Positions 2 through 28,738 are shown, counted from the stretch's first letter. The stretch is DNA of 32,631 bases from Synechococcales cyanobacterium S06 (GCA_011391125.1 JAABRE010000055.1:1-32631); one strand, 5' to 3'. Translations and numbers: made by a program. Notes: generated by a model not told the origin, from the letters alone.

Positions 2-2929
2 AAATTGTACGATTTAGACACAGATAAAACCACGGAATTTGAGTTAAAAGATTTTATTAACAATGTCCATTTATTTGACTTTATTGCGGGGTATGAAAAA
101 CGCATTTATCAAGATGGAGATCCTGTTAATATAAAAGCAGCGGAATTAATGGGAGAACTGCACGATCGCCTCAAAAAAGTAGGCTATACTGGCCATGAAT
201 TAGAAGTGTATTTAGTGCGTTTATTATTCTGTTTATTTGCTGACGATACAGGTATATTTAATAAGGGAATTTTTCAAGAATATATTGATTTACACACTAG
301 ATATGATGGCAGTGATTTAGCGATGCACTTGGGCTATATTTTCCATATTTTAAATCAGCCAGAAGACAAAAGATTAACCAATTTAGACGAAAATTTAGCG
401 CAATTTCCTTACGTAAATGGCAAATTATTTGAGGAAGTTTTACCTCCAGCATCCTTTGATCGAGAAATGCGGGAAATGCTATTAAAAGCTTGTGGATTAG
501 ATTGGGGTAAAATTTCACCTGCCATATTTGGCTCAATGTTTCAAGCAGTCATGAATCCGAATCAACGACGTAATTTGGGAGCGCATTATACCTCGGAAAA
601 AAACATTTTAAAATTAATTAAACCCCTGTTTTTAGATGATCTATATACAGAATTCAATAAGATTAAAAATAATCGTAATAAATTACAGGAATTTCATAAC
701 AAAATTGCCTCCTTAAAATTTCTAGATCCTGCTTGTGGATGTGGTAACTTTTTAATTATTACCTATCGAGAATTACGGGAATTAGAATTACAAATTTTAC
801 AGGAATTATATAAACAAGAAAAGTTTATTGACGTAAAATTGTTTATTAAAGTGGATGTCGATCAATTTTTCGGCATTGAATACGATGAATTTGCCGTCAG
901 AGTCGCCGAAGTTGCTGTATGGTTAATTGATCACCAAATGAATTTGAAAGTAAGTAACGAATTTGGTCAATATTTTGTCAGATTACCTTTGAAAAAATCA
1001 GCGACAATTATCCATGGCAATGCTTTGCGACTTGATTGGGTAGATGCTCTCCTAACCCCCCCTAACCCCCCCTTGAAAGGGGGGGAACTAAGTGATGTCT
1101 ATAAAAGTGTTAGTAATCTTAAAGATAAAAAAGAATTAAGACAAAAGTTGCGAAATAATCCTACACCAGCAGAACAGGTTTTATGGAAAGCTTTGCAAAA
1201 TAAACAATTAGACGGTTTTAAATTCAGAAGACAACATTCCATTGACCGTTATATCTTAGACTTTTTTTGTCCCAGTGCTAACTTAGCCATTGAGTTAGAT
1301 GGTCAACCTCATTATACTTCAGAAGGAATAGAATATGATCGCCTTAGAGATGATTTTCTCAGAAGTGTGGGAATTACCGTTATTCGTTATTCTAATGATG
1401 AAGTATTCGATAATTTAGAACGTGTTTTAGAAGACATCAGACAACATTTACAAACCGTCCAGACTCCCCCCTTTCCAAGGGGGGTTGGGGGGGTTCAATC
1501 TTCAAACCTTGACAGGGGGGTTGGGGGGGTTCAATCTTCAAACCTTGACAGGGGGGTTGGGGGGGTTCAATCTTCAAACCTTGACAGGGGGGATAAAGGA
1601 ATCCATTTCATATTCGGAAATCCTCCTTTTGTGGGGAAAAAAGAGCAAAATAAAGAGCAAAAAATTGATCTGCAAAATATTTTAGGAAAAGTAAAAGGTG
1701 CAGGAGTTTTAGATTATGTAACTGCATGGTATATTAAAAGTGCACAATTTATTCAAAATACGAAAATTCGCTGTGCTTTTGTTAGTACAAATTCCATTTC
1801 TCAAGGTGAACAAGTGGGGATTTTATGGCAGGAATTATACACAAAATATCACGTTAAAATTCATTTTGCCCATCGTACTTTTAGCTGGTCAAATGAAGCG
1901 AAAGGTAACGCTGCTGTTCATTGCGTAATTATTGGTTTTGGGTTGCAAGATATAGAAAATAAGCGTCTTTTTGATTATATTAATATCAAAGGAGAATCCA
2001 CAAAAAGGAAAGTAACTAACATTAATCCCTATTTAACAGAGGGGAATGATTTAGTAATTTTAAAACGAAGTAAACCAATTTCAAATATACCAGAAATAAA
2101 TTACGGAAGTATGCCAATTGATAATGGAATCCTCATTTTTTCCGATGAAGAAAAACAGGAGTTGTTAAGAAAAGAACCTTTAGCCAATCAATATATGAAA
2201 CAATATTCAGGAGGAAAAGAATTTATTAATAATCTTAAACGTTGGTGTTTATGGCTAGTTGATGTGGAACCTAGGGAATTGAAAAAAATGCCTTTAGTTT
2301 TAGATAAAATTCAGCAAGTTAAAACCTATCGACAAAGTAGCGGTAGAACAACAACGATTAAACTTGCTGAAACTCCCTATTTATTTGGGGAAATTAGACA
2401 ACCAACCACAGATTATATTATTATCCCGAAAGTCTCATCTGAAAATAGGAAATATATCCCCATTGGTATTAATAATAAAGAAATTATTGCCAGTGGAAGT
2501 GCGTTAATTATTCCTAATGGTAATTTCTTCATGTTTGGAATAATGACCTCCCAAATGCACATAACTTGGGTAAAATATGTGTGTGGAAGAATGAAAAGTG
2601 ATTATCAATATTCAAGTTCAATTGTTTATAATAATTATCCCTTTCCCGATAATATTACTGATAAACAAAAGCAAAAAGTCGAAACTTGCGCGCAAATTGT
2701 GCTTGATACAAGGGCAAAATATCCTAACAGTAGTTTAGCGGATTTATATGACCCTTTAACTATGCCACCCGACCTAATAAAAGCACATCAAAACCTTGAC
2801 AAAGCCGTAGATTTATGCTATAGATCGCAACCATTTGTCAACGAATTAAACCGCATTGAGTTTTTGTTTAACCTGTATGAAAGTTTAAAAGAGAAAAAAC
2901 AGGTTTGTTGTTGCGCTTTAGCGCATTAG
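2..2929 (+). CDS. MmeI-like N6-adenine DNA methyltransferase, 5' partial, with an in-frame DUF559 nuclease insertion
   Basis: Probable adenine-specific DNA methyltransferase or type IIL-like restriction-modification protein. Residue numbers count from a TTG at 5. The frame is open to the window edge, and the first residues (KLYDLDT) look like the middle of an MmeI-type protein, so the true start and any N-terminal nuclease lie upstream. An MmeI-like helical region holds LLFCLFADDTGIF near residue 75. SAM-binding motif I is LDPACGCGNF (240-249) and catalytic motif IV is NPPF (539-542). A target-recognition-like C-terminal half follows. Between motifs I and IV, residues about 350-529 are foreign: PPNPPLKGG, then a DUF559/Vsr-like domain, then three copies of RGVGGVQSSNLD. 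Removing them would rejoin NALRLDW to IHFIFGNPPF. The last residues (about 967-974, QVCCCALAH) come from a palindromic repeat that also supplies the stop. Whether the enzyme is active is unknown; the family call is firm. Confidence 0.85.
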   Translation, partial: KLYDLDTDKTTEFELKDFINNVHLFDFIAGYEKRIYQDGDPVNIKAAELMGELHDRLKKVGYTGHELEVYLVRLLFCLFADDTGIFNKGIFQEYIDLHTRYDGSDLAMHLGYIFHILNQPEDKRLTNLDENLAQFPYVNGKLFEEVLPPASFDREMREMLLKACGLDWGKISPAIFGSMFQAVMNPNQRRNLGAHYTSEKNILKLIKPLFLDDLYTEFNKIKNNRNKLQEFHNKIASLKFLDPACGCGNFLIITYRELRELELQILQELYKQEKFIDVKLFIKVDVDQFFGIEYDEFAVRVAEVAVWLIDHQMNLKVSNEFGQYFVRLPLKKSATIIHGNALRLDWVDALLTPPNPPLKGGELSDVYKSVSNLKDKKELRQKLRNNPTPAEQVLWKALQNKQLDGFKFRRQHSIDRYILDFFCPSANLAIELDGQPHYTSEGIEYDRLRDDFLRSVGITVIRYSNDEVFDNLERVLEDIRQHLQTVQTPPFPRGVGGVQSSNLDRGVGGVQSSNLDRGVGGVQSSNLDRGDKGIHFIFGNPPFVGKKEQNKEQKIDLQNILGKVKGAGVLDYVTAWYIKSAQFIQNTKIRCAFVSTNSISQGEQVGILWQELYTKYHVKIHFAHRTFSWSNEAKGNAAVHCVIIGFGLQDIENKRLFDYINIKGESTKRKVTNINPYLTEGNDLVILKRSKPISNIPEINYGSMPIDNGILIFSDEEKQELLRKEPLANQYMKQYSGGKEFINNLKRWCLWLVDVEPRELKKMPLVLDKIQQVKTYRQSSGRTTTIKLAETPYLFGEIRQPTTDYIIIPKVSSENRKYIPIGINNKEIIASGSALIIPNGNFFMFGIMTSQMHITWVKYVCGRMKSDYQYSSSIVYNNYPFPDNITDKQKQKVETCAQIVLDTRAKYPNSSLADLYDPLTMPPDLIKAHQNLDKAVDLCYRSQPFVNELNRIEFLFNLYESLKEKKQVCCCALAH
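1052..1592 (+). mobile_element. In-frame DUF559 (Vsr-like) nuclease cassette bounded by G/C-run repeats
   Basis: This segment encodes residues about 350-529 of the methyltransferase and does not belong to its fold. It opens with a C/G-run palindrome (1052-1086), continues with a DUF559 domain (about 1095-1460) and closes with a second palindrome (1463-1494) that runs into three 36-bp tandem units. The nuclease part has LRNNPTPAEQVLWKAL, then FRRQHSIDRYILDFFCP, then IELDGQPH. E430, D432, H436 and D445 or D449 fit the EDxHD pattern of Vsr-like endonucleases. No stop or frameshift interrupts it, so it is translated as part of the host protein. I infer a mobile or homing-like origin from the flanking repeats and the site. 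I see no intein splice motifs and no separate start with an obvious ribosome binding site. Confidence 0.75.
1479..1592 (+). repeat. Three tandem 36-bp repeats (in-frame 12-residue repeats)
   Basis: Three identical 36-bp units start at 1479, 1515 and 1551, followed by a partial six-G copy. Each unit is a G6-TT-G7 block followed by TTCAATCTTCAAACCTTGACA. Because 36 is a multiple of three, each unit adds RGVGGVQSSNLD and copy number can change without a frameshift. The repeated G6/G7 runs on the plus strand could form G-quadruplexes. Confidence 0.95.
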
Positions 2930-7473: not shown

Positions 7474-7599
7474 TAATAGACTTCTTGCACCAAGTCGCGG
7501 TAATAGGTAATAGGTAATAGGTAATAGGTTTTTAGGTAATAGGTTTTTAGGTAATAGGTAATAGGTAATAGGTAATAGGTAATAGGTTTTTAGGTAATT
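7474..7599. repeat. CTTGCACCAAGTC leader followed by a GGTAATA heptamer array
   Basis: A short imperfect hairpin (GACTTCTTGCACCAAGTC, 7474-7491) is followed by a long array of the heptamer GGTAATA, broken by three GGTTTTTA variants, from 7499 to 7599. The same leader and heptamer recur at 12209-12268, so leader and array form one repeat unit. Frames translated through it give only low-complexity peptide. Confidence 0.9.
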
Positions 7600-7825: not shown

Positions 7826-7852
7826 AACTCACCCGCTTAAAATTTGTTAACT

Positions 7853-7922
7853 GATAACTGATAACTGATAACTGTTAACTGATAACTGATAACAGTTAAC
7901 TGGTAACTGTTAACTGATAACT
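7853..7922. repeat. TAACTGA heptamer array abutting the topA stop codon
   Basis: An imperfect array of TAACTGA and its variants (TAACTGT, TAACTGG) runs from 7853 and reaches the last codons of topA at 7921-7923. The array may have replaced the original downstream sequence of the gene. Confidence 0.85.
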
Positions 7923-12208: not shown

Positions 12209-12268
12209 CTTGCACCAAGTCAGGTAATAGGTAATAGGTAATAGGTAATAGGTAATAGGTAATAGGTA
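12209..12268. repeat. Second copy of the CTTGCACCAAGTC plus GGTAATA array unit
   Basis: TTCTTGCACCAAGTC (12209-12223) is followed by about six GGTAATA heptamers to 12268. Both parts match the unit at 7474-7599. It sits inside the coding sequence of the DUF433 pseudogene, directly after codon 10. Confidence 0.9.
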
Positions 12269-12430
12269 AAGAAATTGACGCTTATGAGAGGAAAATTGAT
12301 TTTATTCTTAGTTTCGCAAGAGGTCTAATCTGGTATTAGCGTAGAAGAACTTGCTCAAGAAAGAAGTCATCTCAATTTAGCTCAAATTTACGCTGCTTTA
12401 GCCTATTATTATGCTAATCAAGCGGTCATT

Positions 12431-15678: not shown

Positions 15679-18600
15679 TTATAAAAGTGGTTCAATTAAA
15701 TTTCTAATTTTATCAAGGCGAAATTCATCTACTAAATCAGTTAAACTATTAATTAAACCGGTTTCAGTATTAGGAATTTCTGTAATTAATTCTAAAATTA
15801 ACTGGTCATCTAAGTCAATTGATGCCTGATACATTTTTTCTAACCATTCTGTTGACATAATTTGTAAACAGTTAGTTGTTAAGTTAAAAATTGCGGTTTT
15901 TTCAGTTATTTTTTCCTCATTTTCATAAAGATAACGCACACCTAAATGTTTCGTCATTGTTTCAAAAATCGTACTTTCTTTAAAGGGTTTTCTGACAAAA
16001 TCATCGCAACCTGCTGATAAAGTAATTGCTTTTTCTTCTTCTAAAACACTGGCAGTTAAAGCGATAATTGCGGTGGCATTTCCTTTAATTGTACCCTTAA
16101 TATATTGGGTAGCTTCGTAACCATCCATAATGGGCATTCTCATATCCATCCAAATTAAATTAGGCTGCCATTTTTCCCAAATTTCTATTGCTTCTTCGCC
16201 ATTAAAAGCGGTTTTCAATTCAAAACCCAAAGGCTGCAATAATTTAACCAATAACTGACAGTTAACCTCCTTATCATCGACGACTAAAATTTTATACTGA
16301 GGTTGATTGGCTTCTAAGCCGATAATACGATGTTGGTTTTTTTCTGTTTGCAACTCAGTGGATTTTATCTCGGTAATATTAATATTAAAAGTGAAAGTAG
16401 TGCCTTGATTTAAGGTACTTTTAACTGTTATTTCTCCTCCCATTAATTGGACAAATTTTTGGCTAATTGCTAATCCCAACCCTGTGCCTTCTTGGGAATA
16501 TTTGCCACTTTCTGTCTGCGCAAAAGCTTGAAATAAATTATTAATTTCATCCGGAGCAATTCCTACTCCCGTATCAGTAATTGTAAAGGTGATTTGATCC
16601 CCCCCACCCCCATTATCAAGGGGGAAATTAAGGGGAAATTCGCCCCCCTTAGCAAGGGGGGTAGGGGGGGTGATCAGGGGATTAAAAGAGGAAATATTAA
16701 CCGAAATTCCGCCGGAATTAGTAAATTTAATCGCATTATTGATCAGATTAATTAAGACTTGGCGCAATTTTACCGAATCGGTGCAGACGTATCTAGGAAG
16801 GTTCTCAGACCGCTCAAAAATTAACTGTAGGGACTTTGATTCAGCTTTTAGGCAAAAAATATCCTCAACCTCGTCTAAAAGCTGATACAGGTCAAAATTT
16901 TGAGGGTTTAAAATGGTTTTACCAGCTTCAATTTTTGCGAGGTCAAGAACATTATTAATTAATGTTAGCAAATATTCGCCACTACGATTAATAATACTCA
17001 CATTTTCTTGGTCTTCTTTTTGTAATTTTTGCGAGCGTAACATTAATTGAGAAAATCCTAAAATCGCATTTAAAGGCGATCTTAATTCGTGACTCATGTT
17101 TGCTAAAAAGGTACTTTTAGCCTTATTAGCAACCTCTGCTTTTTCCTTCGCTTCCAATAATTCTGCTGTTCTTTCTTTTACTTGTAATGCCAAATTTTCG
17201 TTATAATTTTTCATTAATTTTTCTGCTTCTTTTCGATCAGTAATATCTTGAAAAACGGCGAGGGCATAAATAATATTACCATGTTCATCATAAATAGGAG
17301 TAGCCCAAACTTCTCCCGCTAATTTATCATTATTTTGCCTAAATTCTATGTCATCTAAATAAACAGTTTTACCCTGTAAAGCTTGGACAACGGGTAAAGA
17401 TTCTGTCGGATATAATTGGTTAGTTTCTGCTTGATAAAGTTGATAAGTTTCACTTAAACCTGAACTTTTTGCCTCAAGAATTGAGTCAATTTTTAATAGT
17501 TTTTTACCATTTTTATTAACATAATGCATTTGACCACTGGTTTCATGAACCGCTACACCAAGGGGAATTGCTTCTAAAAATTGTCTTAAACGGTTTTCAT
17601 TTTGCTGTAATTGAGCAAAGGATTTTTGTAATTCCTCAGCCATTTTCTGAAAAGCTAGAGATAATTGGCCAATTTCATCTTGACGATTATATTTAATATT
17701 TTGTTGCCAATTTCCAGCCGCTAAATCCTGGGCAGATTGATTTAATTTCAAAATGGGTTTTGTGATCCCATTAGCAGTTAAAATACCAATAATAATGGCA
17801 ATAATTAAAGCGAAAATTGATAAGAAAATGGTTACTTTAGTATTCTCATTAATCTGAGCCATAAAATCAGATTTAGGAATTACAATAACCGTTAACCAAT
17901 GTAAATCTTTTTCCTGTTGTGTGGGAGTAACTCTCAAAAAATATTGCTGATTTTTAATCGGAAAGTGTAAATTTTGCGACTGATTAATTTTGCTAAAATC
18001 ACCGAAATTAGTTAGTAAAAATTCAGTGGTTTTTTGGGTTAAAAAATCCTCACTATTAAGAGCTTTTTTGCGTCTTTTATTGGGATTAAGATTTTGAGCA
18101 GTAGTAAGTTCAACTTGTTTGGTAAATGGTGTTTCTCCCGTGGAAGTAGCAATTAATAAACCTTTGGTATCAATAATAAAAGCTTTACCAGTTTTACCGA
18201 TATGTAACGTTTCTAAAAATTTACCCATTTGGGACAGATGAAAAGCGGAAGAAACCACACCTTTAAATTCACCTTTTTGATTATAAAAAGGCATAAAATT
18301 AGCAAGAATTAGAATGGGGTAGTTTTTCCCTTTTGGAGTAGAAACTGTATGTATCCAGAGCGATTTTTGTTCTTTTTTTACTCTTTGATACCAAGGATTT
18401 CCGGGAGGATCATTATGGGGATCATAAGGATATTGGGCCAACAATCTACTAGGCTTTCTTTGACTATCAAGTAGATAACTAAATTGTTTTCCCTGAGTTT
18501 CTTTATTATGAGTTCTAAAAATCAGGTCATTTTCGAATCTTTCAATTATTAAAAAATCCTTTTTATCATTAGCAATTAAAACAGCACTGGCCTTATCAAA

Positions 18601-18897
18601 TATTTGCATTTGTTGTAAAAAGTGTGCTTTAATTTGTGACAAATTATAGGGATTAAGCAGACCTAATTTTAAAGCTGCTGCATTACTGTAATCAAGATTT
18701 TCAGGAATACTTAAATAATGTGACAAATTTTCCTCGATTCTTTCTCCGGTTTCATCTATTAATTGAAAAGCCAAATTTTCGACAGATTCTTGACCATTTT
18801 TAAAGGAAAGATAACCAACTAAACCAACAGTAACACAAATTTGTAAGACAAAAGGAACGATAAAAATAAATTTGAGAGAAAGTTTATTAAAGAACAT
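15679..18897 (-). CDS. Membrane hybrid sensor histidine kinase (Cache-HAMP-PAS-HisKA-HATPase-REC) with an in-frame repeat peptide
   Basis: Membrane sensor of 1072 residues. TM1 (about 8-31) and TM2 (355-377) bracket an extracytoplasmic dCache-like sensing domain (about 35-350; NPWYQRV, GKTGKAFIIDTKGLLIATS). HAMP (376-430), PAS (435-560), a coiled coil (560-597) and HisKA with His603 (MSHELRSPLNAILGFSQL) follow. HATPase_c has N721, DTGVG (775-779) and GTGLGLA, then a receiver domain (about 868-985) with D918 and K970. The last 75 residues are helical and may be an HPt remnant, but no clear phospho-accepting His is visible. Residues about 741-768 (TPPTPLAKGGEF then DNGGGGDQ) are encoded by a C/G-run palindrome inserted between two HATPase strands. 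It is probably the partner of the kinase downstream. Confidence 0.92.
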   Translation of the reverse strand: MFFNKLSLKFIFIVPFVLQICVTVGLVGYLSFKNGQESVENLAFQLIDETGERIEENLSHYLSIPENLDYSNAAALKLGLLNPYNLSQIKAHFLQQMQIFDKASAVLIANDKKDFLIIERFENDLIFRTHNKETQGKQFSYLLDSQRKPSRLLAQYPYDPHNDPPGNPWYQRVKKEQKSLWIHTVSTPKGKNYPILILANFMPFYNQKGEFKGVVSSAFHLSQMGKFLETLHIGKTGKAFIIDTKGLLIATSTGETPFTKQVELTTAQNLNPNKRRKKALNSEDFLTQKTTEFLLTNFGDFSKINQSQNLHFPIKNQQYFLRVTPTQQEKDLHWLTVIVIPKSDFMAQINENTKVTIFLSIFALIIAIIIGILTANGITKPILKLNQSAQDLAAGNWQQNIKYNRQDEIGQLSLAFQKMAEELQKSFAQLQQNENRLRQFLEAIPLGVAVHETSGQMHYVNKNGKKLLKIDSILEAKSSGLSETYQLYQAETNQLYPTESLPVVQALQGKTVYLDDIEFRQNNDKLAGEVWATPIYDEHGNIIYALAVFQDITDRKEAEKLMKNYNENLALQVKERTAELLEAKEKAEVANKAKSTFLANMSHELRSPLNAILGFSQLMLRSQKLQKEDQENVSIINRSGEYLLTLINNVLDLAKIEAGKTILNPQNFDLYQLLDEVEDIFCLKAESKSLQLIFERSENLPRYVCTDSVKLRQVLINLINNAIKFTNSGGISVNISSFNPLITPPTPLAKGGEFPLNFPLDNGGGGDQITFTITDTGVGIAPDEINNLFQAFAQTESGKYSQEGTGLGLAISQKFVQLMGGEITVKSTLNQGTTFTFNINITEIKSTELQTEKNQHRIIGLEANQPQYKILVVDDKEVNCQLLVKLLQPLGFELKTAFNGEEAIEIWEKWQPNLIWMDMRMPIMDGYEATQYIKGTIKGNATAIIALTASVLEEEKAITLSAGCDDFVRKPFKESTIFETMTKHLGVRYLYENEEKITEKTAIFNLTTNCLQIMSTEWLEKMYQASIDLDDQLILELITEIPNTETGLINSLTDLVDEFRLDKIRNLIEPLL
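16595..16676 (-). repeat. C/G-run palindromic repeat inserted in frame in the kinase ATPase domain
   Basis: The 82-bp element is bounded by TGATCC-C5 on the left and G7-TGATCA on the right. Inside are two further runs facing each other (ATCAAGGGGGAA and CCCCCCTTAGCAAGGG), so it is a palindrome with a smaller palindrome within. It belongs to the same family as the repeats at 1052, 1463, 32047 and 32418. The host frame is kept open. Confidence 0.85.
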
Positions 18898-25490: not shown

Positions 25491-25706
25491 TCACAATTAA
25501 TAATTGGATTTTCCGGTTGCAAATGGCTAGTTGATAGTTGATAGTTGATAGTTGATAGTTGATAGTTGACAGTTGATAGTTGACAAATTGCAACAAAATC
25601 AATTCTATTTCCCAATTATTAATTGTTTTTTAATTATCAATTATTAATTATTAATTATTAATTATCACTTATCAATTATCACTTATCACTTATCACTTAC
25701 CTAAAT
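25491..25706. repeat. Two arrays of short repeats upstream of mgtE
   Basis: Eight TTGATAG or TTGACAG heptamers at about 25531-25584 are followed by AATTATT-type repeats (about 25640-25668) and CACTTATCA repeats (25667-25700), which end nine bases before the mgtE ATG. The mgtE promoter and ribosome binding site must lie in or upstream of these repeats, and no typical Shine-Dalgarno sequence is visible. Confidence 0.85.
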
Positions 25707-27101: not shown

Positions 27102-28595
27102 ATGATGAATAACCAATTTTATTGGCTTAATATTGCCGAATATCTATTAATAATAATTACCTTAATTACCCTAGTAATTTCCACTGCTTCTGGCAATTTA
27201 GCTACTCCTCTTTTATGTTTAACTTTAACGGTTTTACTAAATTTAATTAATCGTTTAGTAACGGAAAAACGTCAGCGTAATAAAATAAATTTAGGTTTGA
27301 AAAAAATTACCCAACGAGTGGAACAAATAGAGGAAATTATCCCAAACAAAGAAATTATTATGCCCCATTTTCCCGTGGAGCAATCTAATTCAGTAGAATT
27401 CATTACTTCCTATCAAGAATATTTAGAAAGTTTGGAAAAATCTTTAACAAATGTCGTTCAATATCTTAACAATTCGGCCTTTCTTTCAAGAATAGAATAC
27501 TTAGAAAGAATAACCACGGATTTAAGAACAGAAATTAACCATTTAACCCCGAATAAATCCGCTAATTTTGATTCAAAAATAACCGAAAAAGTCCCCGTTC
27601 AAGAAATACCAAATAAACCCCTGCCTTCCCGTCAAAATTGGCATTGTTTTAATACTATTTTCGCTCATAGTGAATCAGTTACCAGTTTAGCTTTAACCTT
27701 AGATGGTAAATTTTTAGCTAGTGGAAGTGCTGATAACAGCTTAAAAATTTGGTCCTTAAAAGATGGTAAATTAATTGATAGTATTATCGCTCATGAACAA
27801 GCTTTATTAAGTTTAGCTTTCACCAATTCTGAGAAGGAAAATTATTATTTAGCAACCGGTAGTTATGATCAAACTATTAATTTATGGACTTTAAATAAAG
27901 ACAAAAATCAAGCTATTTTTCTCAAAAATAGTCACACTTTAACCAATCATACCGGTTCTATTCATGCTTTGGCGATCGCCCCTCAAAAAAATATTCTGAT
28001 TAGTGCTAGTTATGACCAAAGTATCAAGCAATGGGATTTAACCACGGGTAAACTTTTGTGTAGTTCCTTTGATCCTTTAGGCGCAATTTATGCCCTAGCT
28101 TTACATCAACAAAGGGAAATAATTGCCAGTGCGGGAGCAGATGGAAGTATTAGTCTATGGCAATTGGGAAGGGGAGAAATGCTAGGTTTCTTATCTGGTA
28201 ACGTTTCCTCAGTGCAATCCTTGGCCATGAGTAGGGATGGTCAAATTTTGGCAGCGGGTTGTGTGGATGGAAATATCAGAATTTGGCAATTGACAGCAGA
28301 TATTTTTCAGTCTAAAATCGAACCTTTACCCAATCATGTCATTAAAGCACATTCTGGTCAAGTTACTGGTTTAGTTTTTAGTAATGATAGCCAAAATTTA
28401 TTTAGTAGTGGTGCTGATGGTAGGGTAAAAATTTGGCATTTACCTACTTTTTATAACGTGGGAATTCTAACAATTAATGAGCACGATGATGAGCATCATA
28501 ACAGAGTTTTTGCCATCGCTCTTAGTGCTGATGGAGAATTATTAAGTGTGGGAAGTATTGACGGTAAAATTACGATTTGGTTACGGGATAATTAA
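27102..28595 (+). CDS. WD40-repeat protein with N-terminal membrane segments
   Basis: A 497-residue protein. Two hydrophobic helices (about 9-30 and 34-50) are followed by a helical, possibly coiled-coil linker to residue about 170, then a seven-bladed WD40 propeller. Blades begin HSESVTSLALTLDGKFLASGSADNSLKIWSL-like and repeat with YYLATGSYDQTINLWTL, ILISASYDQSIKQWDL, IIASAGADGSISLWQL, ILAAGCVDGNIRIWQL, NLFSSGADGRVKIWHL and LLSVGSIDGKITIWL. It lies 24 bases after mgtE in the same direction, so the two are likely co-transcribed. Anchored WD40 propellers are common cyanobacterial scaffolds; the partner is unknown. A heptamer array starts at the base after its stop. Confidence 0.9.
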   Translation: MMNNQFYWLNIAEYLLIIITLITLVISTASGNLATPLLCLTLTVLLNLINRLVTEKRQRNKINLGLKKITQRVEQIEEIIPNKEIIMPHFPVEQSNSVEFITSYQEYLESLEKSLTNVVQYLNNSAFLSRIEYLERITTDLRTEINHLTPNKSANFDSKITEKVPVQEIPNKPLPSRQNWHCFNTIFAHSESVTSLALTLDGKFLASGSADNSLKIWSLKDGKLIDSIIAHEQALLSLAFTNSEKENYYLATGSYDQTINLWTLNKDKNQAIFLKNSHTLTNHTGSIHALAIAPQKNILISASYDQSIKQWDLTTGKLLCSSFDPLGAIYALALHQQREIIASAGADGSISLWQLGRGEMLGFLSGNVSSVQSLAMSRDGQILAAGCVDGNIRIWQLTADIFQSKIEPLPNHVIKAHSGQVTGLVFSNDSQNLFSSGADGRVKIWHLPTFYNVGILTINEHDDEHHNRVFAIALSADGELLSVGSIDGKITIWLRDN

Positions 28596-28637
28596 TAGTT
28601 GATAGTTGATAGTTGATAGTTGATAGTTGATAGTTGA
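28596..28637. repeat. Six perfect TAGTTGA heptamers abutting a stop codon
   Basis: Six identical copies of TAGTTGA begin at the first base after the WD40 TAA and end one base before a MITE-like element at 28638. Confidence 0.97.
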
Positions 28638-28738
28638 TATAGCAATCATAAATTAGTTGTAAAAATTATTTTCACCAAACCCTTACTGTAGAGACGTTGC
28701 ATGCAACGTCTCTACACAACGAACATAGGACTGCTATA
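28638..28738. mobile_element. 101-bp MITE-like element with TATAGCArTC termini and a palindromic core
   Basis: The left end TATAGCAATC (28638-28647) and right end GACTGCTATA (28729-28738) are inverted with 9 of 10 matches, and weaker pairing continues to about 23 bases. It contains a 30-bp perfect palindrome at 28687-28716 with half TGTAGAGACGTTGCA. It has no coding capacity. It ends four bases before the stop of the convergent Uma2 gene. Confidence 0.7.

Follow-up and report, generated by a model that had tools for sequence, protein, structure and literature searches.

An in-frame DUF559 nuclease cassette bounded by inverted triplex-type repeats in an MmeI-family gene of a Synechococcales cyanobacterium: a candidate mobile element

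The window analysed here is the complete 32,631 nt contig (G000:C119) of Synechococcales cyanobacterium S06 (GCA_011391125.1 JAABRE010000055.1:1-32631), a genome which stands alone in its own family among the genomes searched. It was found to begin with a gene for an MmeI-family type IIL/IIG restriction-modification enzyme which carries a DUF559 nuclease cassette in frame. This host open reading frame (ORF) lies on the plus strand at positions 2–2929 and comprises 975 amino acids (aa), its 5′ end being lost at the contig start. A profile search of Pfam identified the MmeI_N, hel, Mtase, TRD and C domains in the order found in the MmeI family, and alignment with crystallised MmeI (5hr4; E 3e-289) matched aa 2–350 to MmeI 121–470 and aa 534–962 to MmeI 475–902. 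The stretch for the N-terminal nuclease lies beyond the contig start; that nuclease is seen in the cassette-bearing homologues L002 and L003, with the motif D-x9-ExK visible in both.

Colinearity with MmeI is broken only at aa 351–533 (positions 1052–1600, plus strand), a segment which stands for at most four MmeI residues (471–474) and was delimited by alignment to 5hr4 and to empty homologues. Upstream of it lies methyltransferase motif I (FLDPACGCGNF, 719–751, plus strand; read from the sequence and covered by the MmeI_Mtase match), and immediately after it motif IV (NPPF, 1619–1630, plus strand), the frame remaining open across the entire insert. An initial annotation made from the sequence alone had proposed a Vsr-like DUF559 cassette in frame between these two motifs, which was borne out, and the alignment which it recommended for locating the junctions placed them between the equivalents of MmeI 470 and 475.

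The DUF559/Vsr-like EDxHD nuclease domain itself, of about 107 aa, occupies positions 1127–1450 (plus strand) and was identified by Pfam, by alignment and by structure match. The match to PF04480 was strong (E 4e-33 to 4e-34; 113.9–119.2 bits vs. a curated cut-off of 20.6), and this copy is the sole DUF559 gene of the source genome. All catalytic residues (D420, E431, D433, H437, D446/D450) are present, so the pattern given in the initial annotation was correct apart from a numbering off by one. The codons for D420 to D450 (1259–1351, plus strand) specify residues which vary little or not at all among 30 diverse copies of DUF559, and the catalytic set is kept in every in-frame copy aligned. 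In structural comparison the domain matched the fold of NGO0050, itself a DUF559 protein (3hrl; TMt 0.92), as well as that of the catalytic domain in I-Bth0305I, a homing endonuclease (3r3p; TMt 0.82), and thus both the EDxHD residues and the fold of such endonucleases are found in the cassette. The ratio of nonsynonymous to synonymous substitution rates (dN/dS) is 0.06–0.13 for DUF559 and about 0.35–0.6 for the linkers on either side, which indicates that the nuclease is maintained by purifying selection while the linkers are largely free.

In the predicted structure of the window protein, the mean predicted local distance difference test (pLDDT) score is 60, rising to 90–96 in DUF559 and falling to near 25 in the linkers (344–371 and 487–549). 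The low mean reflects a shallow underlying alignment (38 sequences); as the methylase part is of low confidence, this model was relied on for two points only, an autonomous DUF559 and disordered linkers. A model of the primosomal protein PriA with a cassette likewise has low-confidence linkers (213–230 and 344–357) either side of the domain. The structural check proposed at the outset therefore returned a domain predicted to be well folded between disordered linkers, supporting a DUF559 which would be tethered outside the host fold; the models are no proof of host activity.

The position of the insert raises the question of a cryptic intein or intron, removed after translation or transcription. 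The sites do often adjoin conserved motifs in an intein-like manner (Walker A in the cases of PriA and HsdR, and motif IV in the window gene). However, Pfam detected no Hint domain in the window protein, the matches being to MmeI domains, DUF559-type nuclease models and an Eco57I-type methylase, and an Rfam search for introns and ribozymes gave sub-threshold chance matches only. Since the flanks are also variable in length and family and weakly constrained, removal of the insert is considered highly implausible.

The ends of the cassette form an inverted repeat (1057–1084 and 1466–1493) of 28 nt which is 89% complementary. The left terminal repeat (1057–1085, minus strand) consists of a tail and a hairpin, and the right one (1466–1492, plus strand) of a hairpin and a tail, inverted relative to the left, with the G tail directed outward in both. 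The right arm continues into an array at 1478–1592 (plus strand) in which a 36-nt unit from the tail region (VQSSNLDRGVGG) stands three times in tandem. With zero mismatches, each arm has the pyrimidine stem, the complementary purine stem, the mirrored third purine strand and the short loops of an intrastrand triplex motif. The G/C-run palindromes which the initial annotation had taken as boundaries are indeed present, although the term understates units in which tail and hairpin together form perfect triplex motifs. Such motifs are reported to be abundant in cyanobacteria and Escherichia coli and to be tied to instability, and no mobility genes were reported near them (Holder et al., 2015; PMC4666352).

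The palindrome core CCCCCTT-N-AAGGGGG occurs three times in the window vs. none in 100 shuffles. By pattern matching, on which all genome-wide repeat counts rest, 74 copies of the hairpin core were counted in the genome and none of its reversed control; among these copies the stems and the C-run tail are conserved and the loop is variable. Gene-free inverted doublets are also present (tail-hairpin, a spacer of 10–35 nt, hairpin-tail), and the right half of one of them, at L272 in the same genome, is nearly identical to the cassette's right arm. Accordingly, the cassette resembles a doublet in which DUF559 has taken the place of the spacer. Several doublets are read in frame within long genes, including a histidine kinase gene in the window. 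This hybrid kinase (15679–18897, minus strand) has its doublet at 16618–16660 (NPLITPPTPLAKGGEFPLNFPLDNGGGG) within HATPase_c, just upstream of TDTGVGI, and it constitutes a second in-frame repeat insertion in the window. A candidate second inverted-repeat cassette at C26:7424/7976 was rejected, its repeats being in direct orientation and marking a gene duplicated in tandem.

The loop which carries the insert was compared among relatives. In MmeI-type relatives it usually has nine residues (DWEEVISKEKLNFILGNPPF), and among 29 host genes placed on a tree 19 were empty, six had repeats only and four, from four genomes, had DUF559. According to the initial annotation, an old fixed domain would be recognised by DUF559 being present in most close homologues without flanking palindromes; the opposite was found, most being empty and all four DUF559 copies having repeats. 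The source genome itself has three MmeI paralogues with three different contents, namely DUF559 in the window copy, one repeat unit of the same family in L068, and four copies of another repeat in L069, which is separated from the window copy by a synonymous divergence (dS) of 0.3. Repeat-only loops hold at least three repeat sequence families. In two other genomes, at L073 (G184) and L074 (G132), an unrelated dispersed repeat (SQRRKGAKE; DNA TCTCGCAAAGGCGCAAAG) stands in frame at this point, which shows that the loop accepts unrelated repeats. At L070 (G116) the repeat insertion ends in a stop and the gene is split into frames of 503 and 486 aa, suggesting that retention of the frame is a filtered outcome and not a law.

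The distribution of DUF559 at this site is patchy and discordant with the host phylogeny. The four DUF559 copies found in MmeI genes group as a single clade (support 95). On the host tree, DUF559 requires four changes, each copy grouping with a repeat-only copy, and a single host origin, with the four DUF559 hosts forced together, was rejected (approximately unbiased test, p 2e-44). Between G040 and G063, dS is 0.30 in DUF559 and 0.09 in the linkers vs. 0.91 and 0.65 in the two host sides, and the raised identity extends about 50 codons into the upstream host, a pattern as would be expected from homing with co-conversion. As judged from these sequences, the cassette has spread laterally into the same site of cassette-free alleles, though ordinary recombination between alleles could leave the same pattern. 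The G063 gene (L077) also has a second, repeat-only in-frame insertion (NPPQSPLGKVGGFTVNSPQSSINFPTLKEGLGVV) downstream of motif IV, which G040 does not have.

The cleanest pair of filled and empty alleles was found in PriA. In a family of genomes of about 2 Mb from the same phylum (f47, probably Gastranaerophilales), PriA is present in 145 of 146, and the loop before Walker A is mostly empty. Insertions of DUF559 and of repeats show a scattered distribution on the tree of PriA, with nine changes required for DUF559. The L243 and L144 genes are 98.0% identical over sides of 1.7 kb and 1.6 kb, and in L243 a 443-bp cassette replaces 11 bp. Because these 11 bp in L144 resemble the empty relative L161, L243 is read as a gain. 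L243 comes from a metagenome bin in which misassembly is possible, yet its junctions keep the frame and resemble those of L177. It could be argued that all copies descend from one ancient insertion which was inherited and lost many times, the repeats being a later decoration, and DUF559 copies at one site do usually form one clade. The four changes needed for MmeI and nine for PriA, the L161-like sequence kept at the empty site of L144, and a cassette younger than its host in G040 and G063 make this a very improbable account.

The initial annotation had also advised a search for the cassette in other genes at other sites, and it was found in HsdM, PriA, IspE and others. The loci recovered by searching on DUF559 similarity alone come from many phyla, with at least one archaeal bin among the sources. 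Cassettes lie in frame in HsdM, HsdR, type ISP/IIG methylases, Eco57I-type enzymes, DUF1156 methylases, PriA, IspE, MetH (at two sites), LeuS, UvrA, RecJ and a UvrD helicase, representatives of these hosts having been confirmed by family models. At least 62 of 158 copies are in frame; the sample is biased towards copies like the query alignment, and the figure is no population estimate. In-frame copies are read through both repeats; stand-alone copies mostly start after the left repeat and stop before the right. No stand-alone DUF559 flanked by out-of-frame host halves was found among the host families tested. In IspE two insertion sites are occupied by two different DUF559 clades, and likewise two sites in HsdM, suggesting that lineages follow sites as in homing elements. 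One IspE frame of 577 aa (L085, G267) contains two DUF559 cassettes of different clades at different sites.

These hosts bear on whether the MmeI enzyme instead took up DUF559 to serve as a second nuclease domain or to process mismatches, and kept it for restriction or repair, the birth of a nuclease-methyltransferase fusion having been the other of the two readings offered initially. The domain is under purifying selection within its host, restriction-modification genes are frequent among the in-frame hosts, and they predominate in one branch of DUF559 (support 93). However, the same cassettes are found in PriA, LeuS, MetH, IspE, UvrA and RecJ, proteins such as PriA and LeuS offering no sensible role for a nuclease paired with a methylase, sister alleles are without DUF559, insertion points vary (before or after motif I, or in C-terminal regions), and the host family already has a nuclease domain of its own. 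A functional fusion is accordingly regarded as improbable and, of the two readings, the homing-like one is favoured.

The association between DUF559 and the repeats extends well beyond the window. G/C-rich palindromes are roughly 25–50 times denser within 100–150 bp of DUF559 than beyond 600 bp, and they are present on both sides of 39 of 82 DUF559 genes in named loci vs. 1 of 188 control genes from the same loci. Left and right flanks match in inverted orientation above the 95th percentile of cross-locus pairs at 94 of 152 loci, examples being L227 (58/60 nt) and L229 (46/46). A triplex motif was identified on both sides of 86 of 150 DUF559 genes (inverted in 64 of the 86) vs. 0 of 188 control ORFs. 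Genomes with DUF559 exceed those without it about ninefold in repeat density (median 6.1 vs. 0.69 per Mb, p 0.002), a comparison uncorrected for kinship and with many exceptions which lends weak support. The E. coli DUF559 gene ycjD (L291) has one triplex motif about 200 bp downstream. The presence of ycjD varies among strains: of 5426 E. coli genomes, 3333 cover 80% or more of the query around it.

Taken with the patchy distribution at one site, the conflict between host and cassette trees, the terminal inverted repeats, the many unrelated host genes and the PriA pair, these observations suggest that the insert is probably a mobile nuclease cassette with triplex/REP-like ends which moves in a homing-like manner and is tolerated through translation without splicing. 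The anatomy, the distribution and the lateral spread of the cassette are established from the sequences; the conservation of DUF559, its fold and its constant place between repeats lead us to infer that the nuclease cleaves either the cassette-free site or the repeat and so may drive movement. The cassette would have entered a surface loop of the MmeI-type enzyme between motifs I and IV, where it lies in frame and free of stops, and flexible linkers would join it to the translated protein as an additional domain; with the open, Pro/Gly-rich peptide of the repeats tolerated, splicing would be unneeded. Two routes of movement are envisaged. In the first, homing-like route, the nuclease would break the cassette-free allele and repair would copy the cassette with some flank from the filled allele. 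In the second, rarer route, repeat-dependent jumps to new loops or genes may take place, leaving repeat-spacer-repeat doublets as small non-autonomous relatives.

Several points weigh against this interpretation. Neither cleavage, homing nor transposition has been observed, no target-site duplication could be assigned even in L243/L144, and ordinary recombination between alleles can also give a pattern like co-conversion. The DUF559 tree, built on about 107 columns, has poor resolution. In about two fifths of DUF559 genes no triplex motif is detectable on one side or on both. The repeats also far outnumber DUF559 (74 to 1 in the source genome), and the 41 genomes without DUF559 include repeat-rich ones with up to 262 copies, which indicates that the repeats do not need DUF559 in order to persist, and perhaps not to move either. 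These last figures, together with the doublets which enclose no gene at all and the association of triplex motifs with instability but with no mobility genes alongside (Holder et al., 2015; PMC4666352), are what would be expected if DUF559 were a mere passenger on repeats moved by another activity, whether a Y1 transposase or triplex-induced breaks followed by recombination. Such passive carriage is the main rival explanation, and it is thought unlikely, as DUF559 lies between motifs across phyla and not the control ORFs, repeats are denser where DUF559 is present (with the reservation on kinship given above), and the catalytic residues are kept in all aligned in-frame copies. As to a RAYT as the mover, the source genome has six Y1-transposase hits, of which none (0/6) is flanked by the cassette repeat.

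Several properties of the cassette have precedents. In-frame palindromes, EDxHD homing endonucleases and pairings of REPs with transposases are each already known separately. The arms fit the class of motif surveyed by Holder et al. (2015; PMC4666352), in which, however, the E. coli motifs were intergenic only and had no associated mobility gene. With EDxHD/Vsr-like homing endonucleases such as I-Bth0305I (reviewed in PMC3943268) the cassette shares the catalytic fold, the E-D-H-D residues, site-specific lineages and patchy occurrence. Those enzymes are encoded within self-splicing introns or inteins or stand free between genes, whereas the cassette, which has no surrounding intron or intein and no extended DNA-binding tail, is inserted directly in frame within a gene, is translated, and is bounded by inverted triplex-type repeats. 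The resemblance to REPIN/RAYT systems and GTAG/CGTC REPs (PMC3733652) lies in units of tail and hairpin, in inverted doublets occurring as small gene-free elements, and in a single enclosed coding gene; REPs within coding regions are also known there (PMC3733652). The differences are that the enclosed gene is a DUF559 nuclease and not a Y1/HUH transposase, that the units are C-run/G-run triplex motifs, and that an entire nuclease gene lies in frame in host genes. Rickettsia palindromic elements (reviewed in PMC10969869) are likewise palindromic repeats which keep the frame of protein genes, but they encode no nuclease, while the cassette carries a conserved enzyme and occurs in many phyla. Stand-alone DUF559 genes (NGO0050, 3hrl; E. 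coli YcjD; Caulobacter VsrA, PMC12907096) have the same domain and often the same kind of repeat on both sides, but with start and stop codons of their own, mostly between the repeats. None of the 14 open papers found to mention DUF559 presents it as a mobile cassette in title or abstract, and the combination described here, of DUF559 enclosed by triplex-type inverted repeats, in frame and apparently unspliced in conserved genes across phyla, was not found in the literature searched.

Apart from these features, the window contains heptanucleotide tandem arrays at 7499–7587, 7848–7922, 12222–12269, 25528–25699 and 28587–28639, mostly between long ORFs.

A broader proposal, put forward tentatively and with slightly less than even confidence, is that DUF559 is the autonomous mobilising partner of the G/C-rich triplex repeats widespread in bacteria and archaea. 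It would represent an element class which is neither transposon, intron nor intein, and which enters conserved genes in frame and persists by unspliced translation within essential and defence proteins. If this is correct, a function and a life cycle would be provided for a very common family of "unknown function", and triplex-type repeats, for whose spread the 2015 survey had no explanation, would gain a candidate mobility enzyme. It would mean that a mobile element can inhabit essential genes (PriA, LeuRS, UvrA) without a splicing device, and it would account for the common repeat peptides (PPNPPLKGG, SPLPLGEG and similar) which clutter annotated proteins. The cassettes would also offer natural cases of whole-domain insertion into enzymes with the frame intact, and they would call for caution, in that a DUF559 inside a restriction-modification gene need not belong to the chemistry of that enzyme.

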